Shown here: positions 19,545-30,606 of the stretch, one piece after another | Numbering within the stretch: position 1 is the stretch's first letter | How the letters are laid out: the number at the start of each line of letters is the position of its first letter | Source: Cephalothrix simula | Lineage: Eukaryota > Nemertea > Palaeonemertea > Archinemertea > Cephalotrichidae | Reading direction: 5' to 3' | Length of the DNA: 46,203 nucleotides | NCBI GenBank assembly: GCA_035591015.1 | Contig: JAXIUW010055562.1 | Span: forward strand, 1 to 46,203 | Made by a program: the position numbers and the translations under genes | Notes under the pieces: model-generated | What the model saw: the letters and a program-made list of their open reading frames with translations, nothing else | Told to the model about the DNA's origin: nothing | Databases searched by the model: none

Positions 19545-22500
19545 TTGGGCAATACTCGCATTAATAAAATAAAAATTATTGGGGCCAATGAGCATAACCT
19601 AAAAAAAGTTAGCTTAACCCTACCCCATGATCAGCTGATAGTTTGTACCGGCGTTTCTGGTTCGGGCAAGTCATCATTAGCCTTTGATACCATCTGCAAA
19701 GAAGGTCAACGGCGTTATATTGAATCATTACCGGCATACGCTCGGCAGTTTATCGGAACGCTAGAAAAGCCAGACGTAGAGCTTATTGATGGGTTGTTAC
19801 CTACTGTATCTATTGATCAAAAAGTTCGGGGGCGCAGTCCACGTTCTACTGTCGGCACCATAACTGAGTTATACGACTTTCTGCGTCTTTTATTTGCTCG
19901 TCTTGGCAAGCCCTACTGCCCAGACTGCAATATTCCTGTAGAGACCTTATCTACCGACCAAATTTGCGATCGAATTCTGAGCGGCAAAGATCATGCTCAA
20001 AGCGTTCAGATGGTGCTAGCCCCCATGGTGCGGATGCGTAAGGGCGAGTATCGCCGAGAAATCAGCGACTGGATCAGCAAGGGCTATGTACGAGCGGTAA
20101 TTGACAATCAACTGGTGCGTCTTGAAGAAGCTCCACAACTGCAACGTTATGAGCGTCATAGCATAGACCTAGTCATTGATCGGCTCAAAATTACTCCAGA
20201 AAATCGGGCGCGGCTTAGTGAAGCTATAGAAAAAGCACTTGATGCCGCTAACTTAGTTAAAGTCGGCCAGCAAACCTTCAGTAGTAGCCGTGCCTGCCCC
20301 AATTGCGGGCATCCAATTGCCGAGCTTGAACCACGATTGTTCTCATTTAATGACCCGCAGGGCGCCTGCCCAACCTGTACCGGCTTGGGCTATATTCAAC
20401 AATTTGATGAACAACGCCTCATGTTTCAACAGCGCAGTTTAGCTGATGAAGCTCTATCGGGTACAAATAAAGATGGTCGCATTTATTTTACCTGCATCAG
20501 TCATCAATACCTGCTTGATATTTGCGATGACCTCGGCATAAGCACGTCAACTCCGTGGCAAGACCTACCCCAAAAACAGCGTCAATTATTGCTTGAAGGC
20601 AATTATAAAGGTGAGGTAACCGGTCGCCATCTATTTACTAGGCCTAAGCTATTACAAAACATGGCCGCCAAGGGCAGTTGGCCGGGTTTATATAAAATTT
20701 ACGAGTTTCTGGCTCGGTTTTCATCACGGCTCATTGATCGTTTCCGCAATAGCATGCCCTGCCCCAGCTGTGATGGATTGCGCCTCAGTAAAACCGCTTT
20801 GGCAGTGCGCTTTCATGATCGTAATATTGATGACTTCTCTAAACTGAACATCGGCACAATCTACGATTTTTTCAGCAGCTTAAATCTTTCAGAGCGTGAA
20901 CAGATAATCGGTAAAGACATTCTGCGCCAAATTAAACTGCGCTCGGGCTACTTGCAGCAAGTCGGCGTGGGTTACTTAACCCTAGAGCGCAACGCCAATA
21001 CACTATCGGGTGGCGAGTTTCAGCGGGTGCGCTTGGCTGTTCAGGTGGGAACCGGCTTGCGGGGTGTGTTGTACGTATTAGATGAACCATCAATTGGGCT
21101 GCATCAAAGCGACAATCTAAAACTCATTCAAACCCTTAAACAGCTTCGTGATTTAGGCAATACCGTTATTGTTGTTGAGCATGATGCCCAAACTATGCTC
21201 TCTGCCGACTACATTGTAGACCTTGGCCCCGGTGCCGGAGCCGATGGCGGACAGATTTTAGCCATGGGTACTCCCCGTGCGCTACTCAAAAATAAGGCCT
21301 CTATTTCTGGTCGCTATCTTAGTGGCGGCCTTAAACTTGATCTTCCCATAACAAGACGCTCAGCCGAGCATTGGATTAATCTTAAAGGTTGTAATGCTCA
21401 TAATATTGTTGACCAAGACTTCAAAATTCCCTTGCAAACGCTTTGTGTGATTACCGGCGTATCGGGTTCTGGCAAGTCAACCTTTGTTGAGCGTATTCTT
21501 AGCGCAGCAGTCCGCACTCAGCTAGAAAAACTGCCCCTACCAGCGGTTTGTAAGCAGCAACAGGGCTGTGAACAGCTTGATAAAATTATAGAAATTGACC
21601 AATCGCCAATCGGACGCACTCCACGCAGTAATGCCGCCACCTACACTAAGGTGTTTGACCTAATTCGAAATCTATATGCCCAGCTACCGCAGTCAAAACT
21701 GCGGGCTTACAAAGCTGGCCGCTTTTCATTCAATGTTAAGGGTGGCCGCTGTGAAGAATGCCAAGGAGCTGGCGTGAAGCTGATTGAGATGCAGTTTATG
21801 GGCAACGTAGCTATTGAATGTGATGTTTGCCTTGGCAAACGCTTTAATAACGAAACGCTTGAAATCTGCTATCAAGACTACAACATCGCCGATATTCTTA
21901 ATCTTAGTGTTAACGAGGCCTGCTCAGTCTTCAAAAACCAACCGCAGATAGCGCATATTCTGAAGACTCTGCAAAAGGTTGGCTTAGGCTATCTGTTGTT
22001 GGGGCAGCCCTCTACGCAGCTTTCAGGGGGTGAGGCTCAACGTGTTAAGCTAGCCAGCGAGCTTCGCCGTCAAGCCACCGGCCGTACGCTGTATATTATG
22101 GATGAGCCCACTACCGGCCTCCATATTCATGATATTAACTACCTGATGACCAGTATTCAATCACTGGTTAATGCCGGCAATAGCGTGGTGGTCATTGAGC
22201 ATAACACCGATGTTATCTCATGCGCCGACTATGTGATTGACATGGGACCCGGCGGCGGCGATGCTGGCGGCAAAATAGTTTTTAGTGGCCAATATCAAAA
22301 ATTTATTGAGTGCAACCAGTCCCTAACCTCAACTACTCTGCGTGAGGGTTTAGCCTTTGAGCCGCAATCTAAGCGCACTAAAAAATCTGCCCTTATTGAT
22401 GAAGACATCATCATTCGTGGCGCACGACAAAACAACCTCGCTGGCATAGATGTTCGTATTCCACGCAATAAACTCAGCGTGATTACCGGCGTATCAGGCT

Positions 22501-25214
22501 CTGGTAAAACATCATTGGCTTTAGATACCCTGTTTGCCGAAGGGCAGTCACGTTATGTGGAGTCATTATCTACCTATGCACGGCGTTTTTTGGGACGCAT
22601 GACTAAAGCTAAAGTAGACTCCATTGATGGCCTCATGCCAGCCATTGCCGTACAGCAACAGCAATCATCGGGAACACAGCGTTCAACGGTGGCTACCTCT
22701 ACCGAACTCTATGATTTTCTACGCTTAATCTATACCAGCATCGGCCAACCGCATTGCCTCAACTGTCAGGCACCTTTGCATGCCGCTGCTCCCTCACGAC
22801 TGGCCAAGCAACTGCTCGAAAAATATCATGGCCAACGCCGAGTAGTCTTGGCTCCGCTTGTACCGCTGTCAGCATCGGCTTCTAAAACAACTGCGGCGGC
22901 ACTCAAGCAACGCCTTAATGAGCTTTTTGAGCGTGGATTTGCACGTTTTTATTCAAAAAATGGCTTCTTTGATTTGCATGATGGCTACCCAAAAAGAATT
23001 CCCAAGCCGCTATATGCCGTTATTGACCGCATTAGCATTGCTGAAAAATCTGGCAAACGCCTCACCGAAGCCTTAGAAAGTGCCTACAGAGAGAGTCTTC
23101 TTAGCACCCTAGGCATTATGGATGACGATGGCAGCATTGAATTATTCAGCGAGCAAACTGGCTGCGCCAAGTGCGAATACTTTTTACCCGAACCCTTTGT
23201 TCCCCGTGACTTTTCTTTTAACACCCATCATGGCGCATGCCCCGAATGTAACGGACTGGGAGCTACTCTGCAATTAGATGAAGACCTACTTATAATTGAC
23301 CGCAGCAAGCCTTTATTTGGTGGCGGAATGGCTACTAGCCGTGGAGCTCGCTATTTAGGCGGTCAGCCCGGCCTAGGTCGCAAATACCTGCAAGCCTTTG
23401 CTAAGCGTGCCGACATTCCGATTAAAAAAGCCGTCAATAAACTCTCTCAAGCTGACTTGCACGCTCTGCTCTATAAGGGTGATCGTAGCTATTCAGGCGG
23501 TGTCTACGGCCTAGCCATGCAGTGGCTTAAAAAATCTGATGACCCCGAACATTGGGGGCAGTGCATGATGGATGTACTGCGCCACGCTGCATGCCCTATG
23601 TGCCACGGGCAGCGTCTTAAACCCGAAGTATTGAATGTGTCTATATTGGGCAAAAACATCGCTCAGTTTTGTACTATGCGTGCCGATGAAGCCTTAGCAT
23701 GGGTTGAGGGCTGGCAGCTTAGACCGCATCAAACGCAAATAATTGCCCAGCCACTGGATGAAGTAAAATCATTGCTTAGTTTTTTGATTAAGGTTGGCGT
23801 TGAGTATCTTAATCTTGACCGCCGCAGTAATACTTTGTCAGGCGGTGAGGCGCAGCGTATTCGCTTGGCAACGCAGCTGGGCTCTAATTTAACCGGCATA
23901 CTATATGTGCTTGATGAACCCACCATTGGTCTGCATCCCCACAACATAAACAAACTGGCCGGCACTCTGGAAATGCTTAGAGACCGTGGCAATACCGTAG
24001 TTTTAGTTGAGCATGATGCCGAGATTATCAGCAGAGCAGACCATATTATAGAAATTGGCCCCTTAGCCGGACATCGTGGCGGTCAGCTGGTTCAAAGCTG
24101 TAGCCCGGCCAATTTGATGCGCCGCCAATCGCTTACGGGGCAGTATTTAAGCCATAAGCTATCAGTGCATCCCGCCAAAGGCCTGCCCGCATTAGCTAAT
24201 CCTGACTACATTACTATTAAGGGCGCTCGGCATAATAATCTTCAAAATATCACCGCTAAGTTTCCGCTTAATGCCTTAACTACAGTCAGTGGACTATCAG
24301 GCTCGGGCAAGTCTTCACTAGTAATTGATACCTTGCAGAAGGCCTTGCAGCGACACTTGCACAATAGCAACCAACCCATTGGTGAGCATGATTCAATCAC
24401 CGGCTTTGAAAGCCTTAAAAAAATTGTAGTCGTTGAGCAAAGCCCTATTGGTCGTAGTCCTAAATCTAATGCAGCTACCTACACCGGCTTAATTGTGCCT
24501 CTGCGCAATTTGATGGCCCAGCAACCCGAGGCTCGTAAGCGTGGTTACGCCGCTAAACGCTTCTCTTTTAATCTTAAAGGAGGCCGCTGCGAGGCCTGTT
24601 CTGGCTATGGCTACGAACACGTTGAAATGCACTTTTTAGCCGACCTTTGGCTGCCCTGCGATGTTTGCCACGGCCAACGCTTTAATCGTGAAACACTTGA
24701 GGTTACCTTTAAGGGACACAATATGGCCTCTATTTTAGGCATGGAGGTTGATGAAGCCTTGCAGCTTTTTGAAAATCAACCCGCCATCCATCGTTTCTTA
24801 ACTGTGCTACACTCAGTGGGCTTGGGATATCTTAAATTAGATCAGTCAGCTACCACTCTTTCTGGTGGAGAAGCTCAGCGCATCAAGCTAGCCACAGAGC
24901 TGTCTAAGCGTAATCATGGCTCTACGCTCTATATTCTTGATGAGCCGTCTATTGGTCTGCATATGGATGATATCGCTAAGCTGATAAAAGTTTTGTATGA
25001 CCTTGTTAAAACTGGCAATACCGTAATTGTTGTTGAGCATAACCTAGATTTTATCCATGCTGCACAGCACATCATTGACATGGGTCCCGAGGGCGGCAAT
25101 GCCGGCGGTAAAATAATCGCCGAAGGCAGTCCGCACCTTGTTGCCAAATTAGATTATAGCTACACTGGCGTACATTATCGCCATTATCTTAACCAGCGAA
25201 CTGCAAATGAATAG
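19545..25214 (+). CDS. uvrA: Double-length excinuclease UvrA (tandem fusion)
   Basis: DNA damage-recognition ATPase of nucleotide excision repair. At 1889 residues it is twice the usual ~940. Four Walker A motifs lie at about residues 36 (GVSGSGKSS), 638 (GVSGSGKST), 982 (GVSGSGKTS) and 1583 (GLSGSGKSS). Four LSGGE signatures lie at about 487, 826, 1431 and 1772, each followed by a Walker B segment ending DEPxxGLH. Each half also has CxxC zinc-binding pairs (for example CPNCGHP, CPTCTGLG; CPECNGLG). It is therefore a covalent head-to-tail UvrA dimer, as in Chlamydiae. The first signature reads LSGGEFQR instead of LSGGEAQR. The start is TTG at 19545; no nearby ATG is available. Confidence 0.95.
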   Translation: MGNTRINKIKIIGANEHNLKKVSLTLPHDQLIVCTGVSGSGKSSLAFDTICKEGQRRYIESLPAYARQFIGTLEKPDVELIDGLLPTVSIDQKVRGRSPRSTVGTITELYDFLRLLFARLGKPYCPDCNIPVETLSTDQICDRILSGKDHAQSVQMVLAPMVRMRKGEYRREISDWISKGYVRAVIDNQLVRLEEAPQLQRYERHSIDLVIDRLKITPENRARLSEAIEKALDAANLVKVGQQTFSSSRACPNCGHPIAELEPRLFSFNDPQGACPTCTGLGYIQQFDEQRLMFQQRSLADEALSGTNKDGRIYFTCISHQYLLDICDDLGISTSTPWQDLPQKQRQLLLEGNYKGEVTGRHLFTRPKLLQNMAAKGSWPGLYKIYEFLARFSSRLIDRFRNSMPCPSCDGLRLSKTALAVRFHDRNIDDFSKLNIGTIYDFFSSLNLSEREQIIGKDILRQIKLRSGYLQQVGVGYLTLERNANTLSGGEFQRVRLAVQVGTGLRGVLYVLDEPSIGLHQSDNLKLIQTLKQLRDLGNTVIVVEHDAQTMLSADYIVDLGPGAGADGGQILAMGTPRALLKNKASISGRYLSGGLKLDLPITRRSAEHWINLKGCNAHNIVDQDFKIPLQTLCVITGVSGSGKSTFVERILSAAVRTQLEKLPLPAVCKQQQGCEQLDKIIEIDQSPIGRTPRSNAATYTKVFDLIRNLYAQLPQSKLRAYKAGRFSFNVKGGRCEECQGAGVKLIEMQFMGNVAIECDVCLGKRFNNETLEICYQDYNIADILNLSVNEACSVFKNQPQIAHILKTLQKVGLGYLLLGQPSTQLSGGEAQRVKLASELRRQATGRTLYIMDEPTTGLHIHDINYLMTSIQSLVNAGNSVVVIEHNTDVISCADYVIDMGPGGGDAGGKIVFSGQYQKFIECNQSLTSTTLREGLAFEPQSKRTKKSALIDEDIIIRGARQNNLAGIDVRIPRNKLSVITGVSGSGKTSLALDTLFAEGQSRYVESLSTYARRFLGRMTKAKVDSIDGLMPAIAVQQQQSSGTQRSTVATSTELYDFLRLIYTSIGQPHCLNCQAPLHAAAPSRLAKQLLEKYHGQRRVVLAPLVPLSASASKTTAAALKQRLNELFERGFARFYSKNGFFDLHDGYPKRIPKPLYAVIDRISIAEKSGKRLTEALESAYRESLLSTLGIMDDDGSIELFSEQTGCAKCEYFLPEPFVPRDFSFNTHHGACPECNGLGATLQLDEDLLIIDRSKPLFGGGMATSRGARYLGGQPGLGRKYLQAFAKRADIPIKKAVNKLSQADLHALLYKGDRSYSGGVYGLAMQWLKKSDDPEHWGQCMMDVLRHAACPMCHGQRLKPEVLNVSILGKNIAQFCTMRADEALAWVEGWQLRPHQTQIIAQPLDEVKSLLSFLIKVGVEYLNLDRRSNTLSGGEAQRIRLATQLGSNLTGILYVLDEPTIGLHPHNINKLAGTLEMLRDRGNTVVLVEHDAEIISRADHIIEIGPLAGHRGGQLVQSCSPANLMRRQSLTGQYLSHKLSVHPAKGLPALANPDYITIKGARHNNLQNITAKFPLNALTTVSGLSGSGKSSLVIDTLQKALQRHLHNSNQPIGEHDSITGFESLKKIVVVEQSPIGRSPKSNAATYTGLIVPLRNLMAQQPEARKRGYAAKRFSFNLKGGRCEACSGYGYEHVEMHFLADLWLPCDVCHGQRFNRETLEVTFKGHNMASILGMEVDEALQLFENQPAIHRFLTVLHSVGLGYLKLDQSATTLSGGEAQRIKLATELSKRNHGSTLYILDEPSIGLHMDDIAKLIKVLYDLVKTGNTVIVVEHNLDFIHAAQHIIDMGPEGGNAGGKIIAEGSPHLVAKLDYSYTGVHYRHYLNQRTANE

Positions 25215-26877: not shown

Positions 26878-29382
26878 TTAGTCATTAGTTAGCGACTTAA
26901 TTGGCTTATGAGTAAGCACCGGTCGGCAGGCCAGCAAGCCCGTGGCTATAATTCCGGCGATGGCAATCAGCATTGCCAAAAATAGCTCTACAAAATTAAT
27001 CTGCACCGGTAATTGAAATATCTGTTCGCCCAAAATCCAGCTGTAAATAATAGCCAAAACAATGGCTATGCTGCTGGCAATGACCCCAATAACCAAATAT
27101 TCAGTGCCTATTTTTTTATATATGTCTGAGTTCGTAGCCCCGAGCAATCTAAATATGGCTGTTTCATGCTGACGAGCATACTGGCTGACCACCGCACTAG
27201 CACACAGAATTATCACGCCCACTACTATAAGAATAAAGGCCATAAAGCGAATTGCATTACCAATGCGTGACACTATTTGATCAATCACGCTAACTACCTC
27301 ACGCACATCAATCATGGTTACGTTGGGCATTTGCTGAATAATCGCATTGCGCATAGCCTCTCTGTCTTCATCAGCACGGCTACGCACCGCAGAAGCAAAG
27401 GTTTGCGGGGCTTTATCTAGCAAATCAGGCGTAAAAATAAAGGTGAAATTGGCCTGCGGCAGCACCCAGTTAACATTGCGAATACTAGTAACCTCTACCG
27501 GCAGCAACACTCCCTGCACATCAAACTCAATTACATCACCTAGTTTAATATCTGTGTTTCTAGTGATCCAGTCAGCCACAGATACTCCTCTGCCCTCGAT
27601 TCCAAAGTGAAACTCTCCGCCAACTATCTCTTCACCTTCCATCAAACTATCACGATAACTAACTGCATACTCACGGACTAAAACTCGGCGATTGCTCTCA
27701 TCCTCTAATTTTATCTCTGATACAGGTTGGTTATTAATGCGTAACATCCGTGCCCTTACTATTGGCTGTGTTAGCATCTCTTCTGCGCTGTGAGCAGTAA
27801 CAATCTCTTTGAATTTTTCGGACTGTTGCGGTTGAATATCAATAAAGAAAGCATCGGGTTGAGGCCCTTCCGTTTGCGTACTTACCTGACGCAACAATAT
27901 AGATTGCGTGGCCTGTGTCGCCAATATAAAGGTTACTCCAATCCCCAACGTCGCAATAGCAACCAAGGCATGGCGATTACTACTCTTCAAGCCAACCAAA
28001 GCATGGCGAATAGCAAAGTTTTGACTGCTAGATAACTTTTGTAGCAATCTAATAAACAAACTGCCCAAGAGCATAAAGGCTCCAATAGCCACTATTATGC
28101 CCAACCACGAATAATAGAAAAAATTACCGGCCCCTAACTCCCAAAAAAACAACGCCCCGCTGCCCGCAACAAACAACACTGCTAGCGCAAAACTTTTTTT
28201 GCGGCTTGATGTAGGCACATCTATTTGCCGAAAGGCCTCTAGGGGTTTTATTTGACGTATTGTTACCAAAAAAGGTGCCATCGTCGCCCAAGTTGTTAAT
28301 ATTCCTAAGCTCAGCCCTTCAACTATAAGCATTAGATTGTCTCGCCAATTAAACGACACTACAAAAAAATCACGCAAAACATAAGCCAGCACCGAATGCA
28401 CCATAACTCCTATGGCAATGCCAATTAAAGAGCCGACTATTGCTATCGCAGTGCTTTGTAAGGCATAAATCAAAGCCAGCTTGCGCCCTGTAATACCAAG
28501 ACATTTCATCACAGCTATGCTTTGGCGTTTTTGTTGCGTATGAGCATGGATAGAGCCAAAAACTCCCAGCACACCCAAGCATAAAATACCCAGACCTATA
28601 ACACGCAAATACCTCGTTAGCCCTGCCATAAATGACCTTATGCGTGGTTGCGCCTCATCATAACGGGTTACTCTGATGTCTTCTCCATCAAAAGTAGTCT
28701 CAAGATCTTCAACTGTAGCCGCTAGATCGCTGCCTCTAGGCAACTTGATAAATAACTCGTAGCGAATACGACTCAGCGGAGTTATTAAACCGCTGGCCAA
28801 GGCCGTATCTAATGAAACAATTACCGGTGGACCGATGGCCAACAAAGATGTTGGTCGTGAATCTTCCGCCAATAATAAACCGCTTAAGGTTAGCTGCTGA
28901 CTACCAAAACTTAGCTCATCGCCAACCTCTAAATCTAGGCGGCTAAATAAATCTTGATTGGCAACTATTGACGCCCGGCTTTGCACTTCCGACCAAGATG
29001 TGCTCGGTTCTACACGCACTGCTCCATACATAGGATAGCTACCGTCTACGGCACGCACATCTACCAAAGCCGAGCGACCATTTTTTGTAGCCGATATATT
29101 AGTTAAAAACCTTGCTCCATAGCCTATTTCTACGCCCTGTTCACGAAGATTGCTCCAATAATCAGCATTATCTTCGTAAAAATTATTCCAGCCTGAAACC
29201 CGTACATCGGCTGAAAGTATGGTTCGTGCTTGTTGGCCAACGCTAGCATCTACATCTCTACGAAAACTCTTTACGCCAATGTATCCGGCTACGCCTAGGC
29301 TAATACTCAATACCAAAAGCAATAATCTTTTCCACGAGCCACGTAGATCACGCCAAACCATCTTTAATGCAAACATTGCCAT
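26878..29382 (-). CDS. FtsX-like ABC transporter permease (YbbP type)
   Basis: An 834-residue inner-membrane protein. A transmembrane helix near residues 18-37 is followed by a large periplasmic domain (to about 240), a first FtsX-like bundle (about 250-380), a central pair of helices (about 400-450), a second periplasmic domain (about 490-690) and a final FtsX bundle (about 700-834). The repeated motif VMKCLGITGRKLALIYALQ and IFRLLGATNSDIYKKIGTEY is the FtsX coupling helix occurring twice. This matches YbbP-type permeases thought to work with a YbbA ATPase on lipids or cell-envelope substrates. No YbbA-like gene is adjacent. Confidence 0.85.
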   Translation of the reverse strand: MAMFALKMVWRDLRGSWKRLLLLVLSISLGVAGYIGVKSFRRDVDASVGQQARTILSADVRVSGWNNFYEDNADYWSNLREQGVEIGYGARFLTNISATKNGRSALVDVRAVDGSYPMYGAVRVEPSTSWSEVQSRASIVANQDLFSRLDLEVGDELSFGSQQLTLSGLLLAEDSRPTSLLAIGPPVIVSLDTALASGLITPLSRIRYELFIKLPRGSDLAATVEDLETTFDGEDIRVTRYDEAQPRIRSFMAGLTRYLRVIGLGILCLGVLGVFGSIHAHTQQKRQSIAVMKCLGITGRKLALIYALQSTAIAIVGSLIGIAIGVMVHSVLAYVLRDFFVVSFNWRDNLMLIVEGLSLGILTTWATMAPFLVTIRQIKPLEAFRQIDVPTSSRKKSFALAVLFVAGSGALFFWELGAGNFFYYSWLGIIVAIGAFMLLGSLFIRLLQKLSSSQNFAIRHALVGLKSSNRHALVAIATLGIGVTFILATQATQSILLRQVSTQTEGPQPDAFFIDIQPQQSEKFKEIVTAHSAEEMLTQPIVRARMLRINNQPVSEIKLEDESNRRVLVREYAVSYRDSLMEGEEIVGGEFHFGIEGRGVSVADWITRNTDIKLGDVIEFDVQGVLLPVEVTSIRNVNWVLPQANFTFIFTPDLLDKAPQTFASAVRSRADEDREAMRNAIIQQMPNVTMIDVREVVSVIDQIVSRIGNAIRFMAFILIVVGVIILCASAVVSQYARQHETAIFRLLGATNSDIYKKIGTEYLVIGVIASSIAIVLAIIYSWILGEQIFQLPVQINFVELFLAMLIAIAGIIATGLLACRPVLTHKPIKSLTND

Positions 29383-30153
29383 CTCCTTACGTTCTTAGCA
29401 CTTACATTCTAAACAATATTTTCGGGAATTAGACAATCTACATGCAAAAAGTAGCGATTGTTTCGGAGATGGAGCGGCAAAAGCGGAACGGGGGATGGAG
29501 CGGCAGAGGAAATCCCCGAAGGGGATTTCAGGGTGAAGCGCAGCTTCACCGCGTGGGACTGCGTCCCACGCCTCTGCCGCTCCTACCGTCCTCGTTAGCT
29601 TCCCTTCTCTATAATATCCTGCCTTGCTTACTGCTCCTACCGCCTCCCGCTGGGCTAATCTCTCTATCAATTATTTTTGTACCCTGCCAGCATTCTGGAA
29701 CACTAATTTTGTACTATTCGGTGCTGTGCTGCCACAATCACTCCGTATTTCATTTTTGTTATGACTCCGTTGCGTAGTTTCTCTGCTCAATTTCTCATCT
29801 GCGCTAGCCTTTACCGAGCATATATTGCGTATTTGAATCTAGTCTATGCTTAGATCATGGCGCACTTATTTTTCATCAATTTTTGCTTATGCTGAGCTTA
29901 TTAAGTCAATGATAGGTGATTAATCTAACAATAGATTAGCATTTTGTGATTTTTGTTCAGCGTTATGTTGTTAAATTCCTAGCACCTAATCTACTGTTAT
30001 GACGCATTAATTTATAATGAATAAAGAATAATTAAAATTTATTGTTGACTTGTTGGCAAAGCAAATGATAGACTGCTAACAAATGGTTGATGAACACGTA
30101 TATTAGTTTAGGCAACCATGTATTATGAGATAACCTTCTAACGGAGAAATACT
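29383..30153. other. Long intergenic region before hsp20
   Basis: About 770 bp without a convincing gene. The left part holds the hairpin cloverleaf at 29497-29583, preceded by a direct repeat of GATGGAGCGGCA (29468-29479 and 29495-29506). Next comes a pyrimidine-rich stretch (about 29580-29670). The right part is AT-rich and should contain the hsp20 promoter; TTGACT around 30044 is a possible -35 box, but no good -10 box at proper spacing is seen. Open frames across the hairpins are artefacts of the palindromes. Confidence 0.6.
29497..29583. repeat. Cloverleaf of three hairpins within a 13-bp stem
   Basis: The outer stem GGAGCGGCAGAGG (29497-29509) / CCTCTGCCGCTCC (29571-29583) is perfect. 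Inside it lie three perfect hairpins in a row: GAAATCCCC / GGGGATTTC (29509-29517, 29521-29529) with loop GAA; GGTGAAGC / GCTTCACC (29532-29539, 29543-29550) with loop GCA; GCGTGGGAC / GTCCCACGC (29551-29559, 29563-29571) with loop TGC, which reads GCA on the other strand. The first and last hairpins share one base each with the outer stem. Every loop is a GNA triloop closed by C-G on one strand, a type known for very stable DNA mini-hairpins. There is no T-tract, so a terminator is unlikely. Confidence 0.9.
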
Positions 30154-30606
30154 ATGAGTGGAATAATTAGAAAAACAGTAAGTAGCCCAGATATGTTTTT
30201 TGGTAGCTTTGATAATTTGTTTGATAGCTTTACCAAGGCTTCTCGTAAATATGAGGTCGGGTTTAATCCTCGGGTTGAGATAGTTGACAATAAAGATCAA
30301 ATCGTAATTAAGGCCGAAGTTCCCGGCCTTAGCAGAGATGATATGTCAATTGACTTTGATGGAGACATGCTCATCCTCAAAGGTGAGAAGCGCCGTGAGC
30401 ATGAACAAAAAGATGAAAACAGCTATATCAGCGAAATAAGCTATGGTAGTTTTCAGCGGAGCTTCAATCTGCCTAAAAATATTGACATGGCTAAGATCAA
30501 TGCCAACTACACCGATGGCGTATTGCAAATTATTTTGCCACGCAAAGAAGACGCCAAACCGGTAAGAATCAGCATTGGTTCAACCGTAGAATCGCAAGAA
30601 AACTAA
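30154..30606 (+). CDS. Small heat-shock protein (Hsp20/alpha-crystallin)
   Basis: ATP-independent holdase chaperone of 150 residues that binds unfolding proteins as oligomers. The alpha-crystallin domain spans about residues 42-140: NPRVEIVDNKDQIVIKAEVPG at its start, LKGEKRREHE in the middle, and the family-typical YGSFQRSFNLP followed by ANYTDGVLQIILPR. A C-terminal VRISI gives the IxI motif used for oligomer contacts. A strong Shine-Dalgarno sequence (GGAG, 7 nt before the ATG) fixes the start. It is a single-gene unit ending in a clear terminator. No CIRCE operator is visible upstream. Confidence 0.95.
   Translation: MSGIIRKTVSSPDMFFGSFDNLFDSFTKASRKYEVGFNPRVEIVDNKDQIVIKAEVPGLSRDDMSIDFDGDMLILKGEKRREHEQKDENSYISEISYGSFQRSFNLPKNIDMAKINANYTDGVLQIILPRKEDAKPVRISIGSTVESQEN

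Follow-up and report, generated by a model that had tools for sequence, protein, structure and literature searches.

The contig JAXIUW010055562.1, from an assembly deposited under the nemertean Cephalothrix simula (GCA_035591015.1), was analyzed in its entirety (46,203 bases, hereafter the window). Between a YbbP-like ABC permease gene and an Hsp20-like gene, positions 29497-29583 contain an intergenic cluster of perfect palindromes that folds into a cloverleaf, a real and striking structure that is unique in the DNA that could be searched. The most likely explanation, put forward tentatively and at rather less than even confidence, is that this single-copy cluster arose, and has been kept perfect, by intrastrand template switching. 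The cloverleaf would then require no dedicated enzyme, and if it influences the genes on either side, it would do so incidentally.

The 87 bases can form a four-way junction on either strand. They are made up of 38 Watson-Crick pairs (in stems of 12, 9, 8 and 9 bp), three 3-nt loops and two unpaired junction bases, the dinucleotide AG at 29530-29531; none of the 38 pairs is G-T and there are no bulges. The outer stem joins a left arm at 29497-29509, recovered by the repeat search and by the fold of the single-stranded DNA (ssDNA), to a right arm at 29571-29583, recovered by the repeat search. In the fold, it encloses hairpin 1 (29509-29529, 9-bp stem, loop GAA on the plus strand), hairpin 2 (29532-29550, 8-bp stem, loop GCA on the plus strand) and hairpin 3 (29551-29571, 9-bp stem, loop TGC on the plus strand, which is GCA on the minus strand). 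A sequence-only reading of the window had described four perfect stems of 13, 9, 8 and 9 bp in 87 bases, with almost no unpaired sequence. The position of the stems and the near lack of unpaired bases hold, but base 29509 is claimed both by hairpin 1 and by an outer stem of 13 bp, so that the latter shortens to 12 bp once hairpin 1 is complete.

The same reading had reported three C-GNA-G triloops. All three loops are 3 nt long, closed by a C-G pair and of the GNA type on one strand or the other, but no single strand carries more than two: the plus strand has GAA and GCA beside TGC, and the minus strand has just one GNA loop. The loop of hairpin 3 is the reverse complement of the loop of hairpin 2.

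The strong folding potential claimed for the element was borne out with both DNA and RNA parameters. The ssDNA fold of 29477-29603 reached -48.2 kcal/mol; shuffles averaged -22.6 (sd 3.1; z -8.3), and none of 200 was as low. With DNA parameters the 87-mer alone gave -41.1 on the plus and -40.9 on the minus strand, while 300 mononucleotide shuffles of the plus strand averaged -15.4 with a minimum of -25.2. With RNA parameters the corresponding values were -68.0 and -67.4, and none of 300 shuffles of each fell below -44.7 and -43.6, respectively. When 87-nt segments of the window were sampled at 15-base steps (3075 in all), the cloverleaf had the lowest ssDNA energy. Moreover, the window contains five perfect hairpins with a stem of at least 8 bp and a 3-nt loop, compared with 0-3 in 20 first-order Markov sequences, and three of these five are the arms of the cloverleaf. 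The proposal that the element was selected to fold as ssDNA or RNA retains its strong folding, while selection acting on one strand is weakened by the division of the GNA loops between the two.

The arms of the outer stem recur outside the cloverleaf. On the plus strand, GATGGAGCGGCA at 29468-29479 is a direct repeat of 29494-29505 at a distance of 26 bp and would act as a weaker outer arm (sequence, repeat search and RNA fold of 29383-29700), and GCTCCTACCG at 29633-29642 is a direct repeat of 29579-29588 at a distance of 54 bp and is a partner of the left outer arm (sequence and fold). In the folds, base pairing between these outer copies was possible, with the cloverleaf enclosed. The doubling of the arms to the left (29468/29494) and to the right (29579/29633) shows local duplication, a point in favour of the template-switch origin.

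Only one copy of the 87-mer was found in the 8.6-Mb assembly, and queries of 101 and 338 bp around it matched themselves alone. With up to three mismatches, the single hairpins were likewise confined to this locus in the assembly, except for one three-mismatch match of hairpin 2 on contig C175; two of the three hairpins also match themselves in reverse. No second such cluster was detected in 1,621,934 bases (152 of 156 sources, the four omitted ones lying within the window) scanned for three adjacent perfect hairpins (stem of at least 6 bp, loop of 3-6 nt) closed by a stem of at least 5 bp, or for two closed by a stem of at least 8 bp. Viral contigs did contain matches to single hairpins (hairpin 2 in 16 stretches, hairpin 1 in four, hairpin 3 and the outer stem pair in none), but all 20 loci were covered by the cluster scan and none is a cloverleaf. 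A phage or plasmid relative was rejected, since the phage and plasmid collections gave short weak matches only (best E 0.7 among the rows listed).

The neighbouring permease reached no more than 33% identity among 119 hits and so lacks a close homologue. A relative was encoded by none of the 16 genome contigs that matched by pattern, and the searches made with the permease and CysS likewise turned up no close relative. A structure model built from the single sequence, searched without a positive control, found no match in the L005 genome or, under stricter filters, in 52 genomes of the same SAR324/Lambdaproteobacteria phylum. The sequence-only reading had recognised no described family, in agreement with the lack of an Rfam match; no description of the 87-bp cloverleaf was found in the literature listings, which is no proof of its absence from print.

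Template switching would account for these properties as follows. A palindrome cluster can form a four-way junction in ssDNA, or a multi-arm cruciform, and during replication one arm of a hairpin may be copied off the other; such copying would both create hairpins and maintain perfect stems. According to PMC8794818, template switching creates perfect hairpins, repairs stems, inverts loops and gives multi-base compensatory changes. The cloverleaf resembles the hairpins described there in its perfect stems, in the possible loop inversion and in stem repair by copying; it differs from them in having no ancestral sequence, so that the mutation event itself can only be deduced. A process at the DNA level is favoured by the perfect pairing without G-T, the nearly equal stability of the two strands and the single copy. 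Template switching is further favoured by the reverse-complement loops of adjacent hairpins, TGC in hairpin 3 and GCA in hairpin 2, a pattern that a loop inversion would leave, and by a few repeat loops elsewhere in the genome that look inverted on identical stems. Such a genome would be one that builds and tolerates hairpin-rich intergenic DNA.

Those inverted-looking loops belong to dispersed hairpin repeats. Intergenic hairpin clusters, many of them at contig ends, were observed in window-like contigs (146,203 bases scanned), and one family is made up of 84-nt hairpin units, often in tandem, with at least 54 matches at E ≤ 0.01 in the assembly, some of which are pieces of one copy. Its copies lie at positions 1-200 of the window and at loci L088, L090, L091, L094, L105, L109 and L126-L145, many again at contig ends; the copy at the left end of the window matches the family's covariance model (R2) at 57-145 with 81.5 bits. 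The units are flanked by further hairpins (the 12-bp TTGGCCGAAGGC, GCAGRGAG and GTTARGGGY). An alignment of 51 distinct units was assembled from 66 hits of the loop word TTCTCTA, keeping full-length, non-identical units with at least six stem pairs, a selection that favours paired stems. Changes on both sides were seen in five of ten stem pairs, with three G-U and three broken cells among 510; ten of the 51 units have one variant stem in common, so the independent events are fewer.

A second dispersed repeat, of 121 bp, was defined from L105:5690-5810 (C1:15690-15810), itself apparently a non-coding hairpin repeat. Besides the query, nine of its 22 matches extend over 85 or more of the 121 bases (86-97% identity), and some copies lie near the 84-nt family. 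In one pair of copies, a change in one stem arm is compensated in the other (GGGGAGC/GCTCCCC versus GGGGAAC/GTTCCCC). Both families are apparently non-coding: no common protein was seen by eye, without a database search, in the open frames of eight repeat copies. Rfam gave no match in seven loci carrying the two repeats, the 84-nt model found none under strict filters in the same 52 genomes, and the commonest hairpin of the 84-nt family was not found in viral contigs.

Two hairpin types with loops in both orientations occur at L126-L151 and in other repeat copies. Among 17 type-A hairpins set in one orientation, identical 12-bp stems carry the loop TTT in two cases and AAA in one; the six type-B hairpins with the stem CAGAGGGC carry ATT (three), AAT (two) or TTT (one). 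These may represent hairpin-loop inversions. The cloverleaf shares with the 84-nt family its intergenic position, its dense hairpins and the geometry of the family's type-C hairpin (9-bp stem, 3-nt loop). However, it is not a member: the R2 model had no match at 29497-29583 up to E 10, and word sharing was at background level. The word CCTTGCTTACT at 29622-29632, shared with the family, is not unusual, since ten 10-mers at nine places in the window, its first 300 bases left aside, are found in at least 12 family pieces. Repeated hairpin-rich elements, which the sequence-only reading had anticipated, are present in this genome, but belong to families other than the cloverleaf.

Several points weigh against template switching as the source of the cloverleaf. 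No event has been reconstructed, there being no parent or sister sequence for comparison, and the evidence for loop inversion comes from a handful of hairpins, whose 3-nt loops substitution could also alter. In the table of PMC8794818, single compensatory changes are not enriched, and loop inversions alone and multiple changes are. The type-C repeat hairpins contain G-T in 27 of 342 cells and mismatches in a further 45, counting unrelated sequences that the anchor had captured, and perfect pairing is therefore no general rule of this genome. Furthermore, three adjacent perfect hairpins within a perfect outer stem are much to ask of a neutral process, and selection for stable hairpins is hinted at by the C-G pairs that close the loops and by the loops themselves, most of them GNA.

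One alternative, considered unlikely, is that the cloverleaf is the orphan of a small, non-autonomous mobile element, similar to a miniature inverted-repeat transposable element (MITE) or recognised by an HUH enzyme, which would move as folded ssDNA and whose source and sister copies were lost or remain unassembled. Consistent with this, it forms a GC-rich island in an AT-rich intergenic region, inverted arms are nested around it, and the genome harbours the two dispersed hairpin-rich families described above, one of them with hairpins of the same geometry. On the minus strand a GTAG (29586-29583) shares one base with the outer stem, the first paired one, although this tetranucleotide is frequent by chance. 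The sequence-only reading had proposed, besides a structured RNA, a mobile element similar to a repetitive extragenic palindromic (REP) sequence or a MITE, or a substrate of a Y1 transposase; the results do not support these mobile readings. The element is present once, its single hairpins recur only in the one three-mismatch match, and the 84-nt family model does not reach it. No target-site duplication was seen at the outer stem (flanks GAT and TAC). A search for the Y1 transposase (Y1_Tnp, PF01797), the domain of RAYT and IS200-like enzymes, gave no match in the assembly, the bacterial part of which may be incomplete; the identical search was positive in five of 14 control genomes. With a single copy, and with neither a transposase nor a target duplication found, mobility is the less likely origin.

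REPs and bacterial interspersed mosaic elements (BIMEs), with their RAYT (TnpA-REP), are also intergenic palindromes that fold as ssDNA, and one REP group has perfect palindromes according to PMC8266576. The GTAG beside the stem on one strand may or may not correspond to the unpaired GTAG (or CGTC) tag at one end of REPs. However, PMC3733652 gives REPs as 20-40 bp long and high in copy number, as opposed to 87 bp, one copy and no Y1 transposase found. The length of the cloverleaf falls in the 70-300 bp range of bacterial MITEs, which it also resembles in terminal inverted arms and lack of coding capacity; it differs in its single copy, the lack of a target-site duplication and arms of 13 bp versus 15-30 bp (PMC3733652). 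The palindromic GC clusters of yeast mitochondria are GC-rich palindromes in AT-rich intergenic DNA, and their modules merge (PMC4478555). In contrast, the cloverleaf is bacterial and unique. In the terminal hairpin of parvoviruses such as adeno-associated virus (AAV), a junction is likewise surrounded by short arms that end in 3-nt loops; the geometry alone is alike, and nothing else points to a relation.

Equally improbable is a structured RNA or cis-regulatory leader, transcribed toward the permease on the minus strand or as a small RNA, that would act through the four-way junction. The element folds well as RNA on both strands, and the permease is annotated to start some 115 nt downstream of it. 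Conversely, near-equal stability on the two strands and the lack of any G-U pair fit a DNA palindrome better. A promoter scan of 29300-30200, limited to sigma-70-type sites, gave three sites, all on the plus strand at 30011-30104, against 2.3 expected, and none on the minus strand. A known RNA family was rejected: the best Rfam score near the cloverleaf was 19 bits versus a gathering score of 62, with only microRNA matches far below threshold. Elsewhere in the window, Rfam matched two tRNAs, both away from the cloverleaf. As the sequence-only reading had said, there is no terminator tail; no T run follows the structure, and one weak partial match to an intrinsic terminator lies inside it (tail ATTTCCTCTG).

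More speculatively, the cloverleaf might be one of a class of DNA elements of this lineage conserved in architecture but free in sequence. These would be four-way junctions whose stems drift by arm re-copying, while recognition of the folded single strand by a cellular enzyme preserves arms of about 9 bp and 3-nt loops; both repeat families would have arisen in the same way. Least probable is a protein-binding or replication landmark, such as a cruciform or an ssDNA initiation or packaging site: the multi-arm cruciform geometry and the two GNA loops on one strand would suit it, but the searched neighbours are ABC permease, Hsp20, CysS and UvrA, the phage and plasmid collections hold no similar DNA beyond the short weak matches, and there is no sustained skew switch, with 3-kb windows showing only a local dip at 27-30 kb, at the long minus-strand permease gene, so that an origin-like skew was rejected.

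The intergenic region extends over 771 bp (29383-30153) between the divergent permease (26878-29382, minus strand) and Hsp20-like (30154-30606, plus strand) genes, both of which score below NCBIfam's curated cut-off for the named family. GC content is 0.65 at the cloverleaf, versus 0.25-0.42 across most of the rest of the region. The neighbouring genes searched also included CysS, UvrA and one small open reading frame without a family. The UvrA gene (19545-25214) is of double length, encoding 1889 amino acids with two UvrA-profile stretches; tandem UvrA is otherwise known from Chlamydiae.

The window, a whole contig, appears to derive from a bacterium within a mixed assembly. By tetranucleotide composition, six of 20 ten-kb stretches (on C47, C175, C1, C2 and C20) were window-like, with correlations above 0.9, and 14 were at 0.66-0.75; ten of these 14 had almost no long reading frames, while another of them, L087, was densely coding. 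Low-GC contigs with few reading frames, eukaryote-like in character, stand beside bacterial contigs of about 44% GC. The assembly seems to combine eukaryote-like contigs with a single bacterium and perhaps further organisms, and the bacterium may be a symbiont or a contaminant. For CysS, the best E-value was that of a Candidatus Lambdaproteobacteria contig (54% identity), but this protein discriminates poorly because other phyla reach 53-55% among the best 80 of 585 hits. HtpG was 48% identical to a SAR324 protein, and the next hits were at 42-44% among the 120 listed of 8000 candidates scored. SAR324 and Lambdaproteobacteria are names for a single phylum. The host may be a deep SAR324 relative, an assignment that comes mainly from one marker.

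Perfect multi-hairpin junctions are usually read as mobile ssDNA elements or as RNAs. One genome here contains a single-copy cloverleaf and, separately, hairpin repeats with compensating stems and a few apparently inverted loops, which makes it testable whether bacteria can form and keep such structures through replication template switching alone. The two repeat families merit follow-up more than the cloverleaf itself. The answer would also bear on the use of covariation as proof of a functional RNA.
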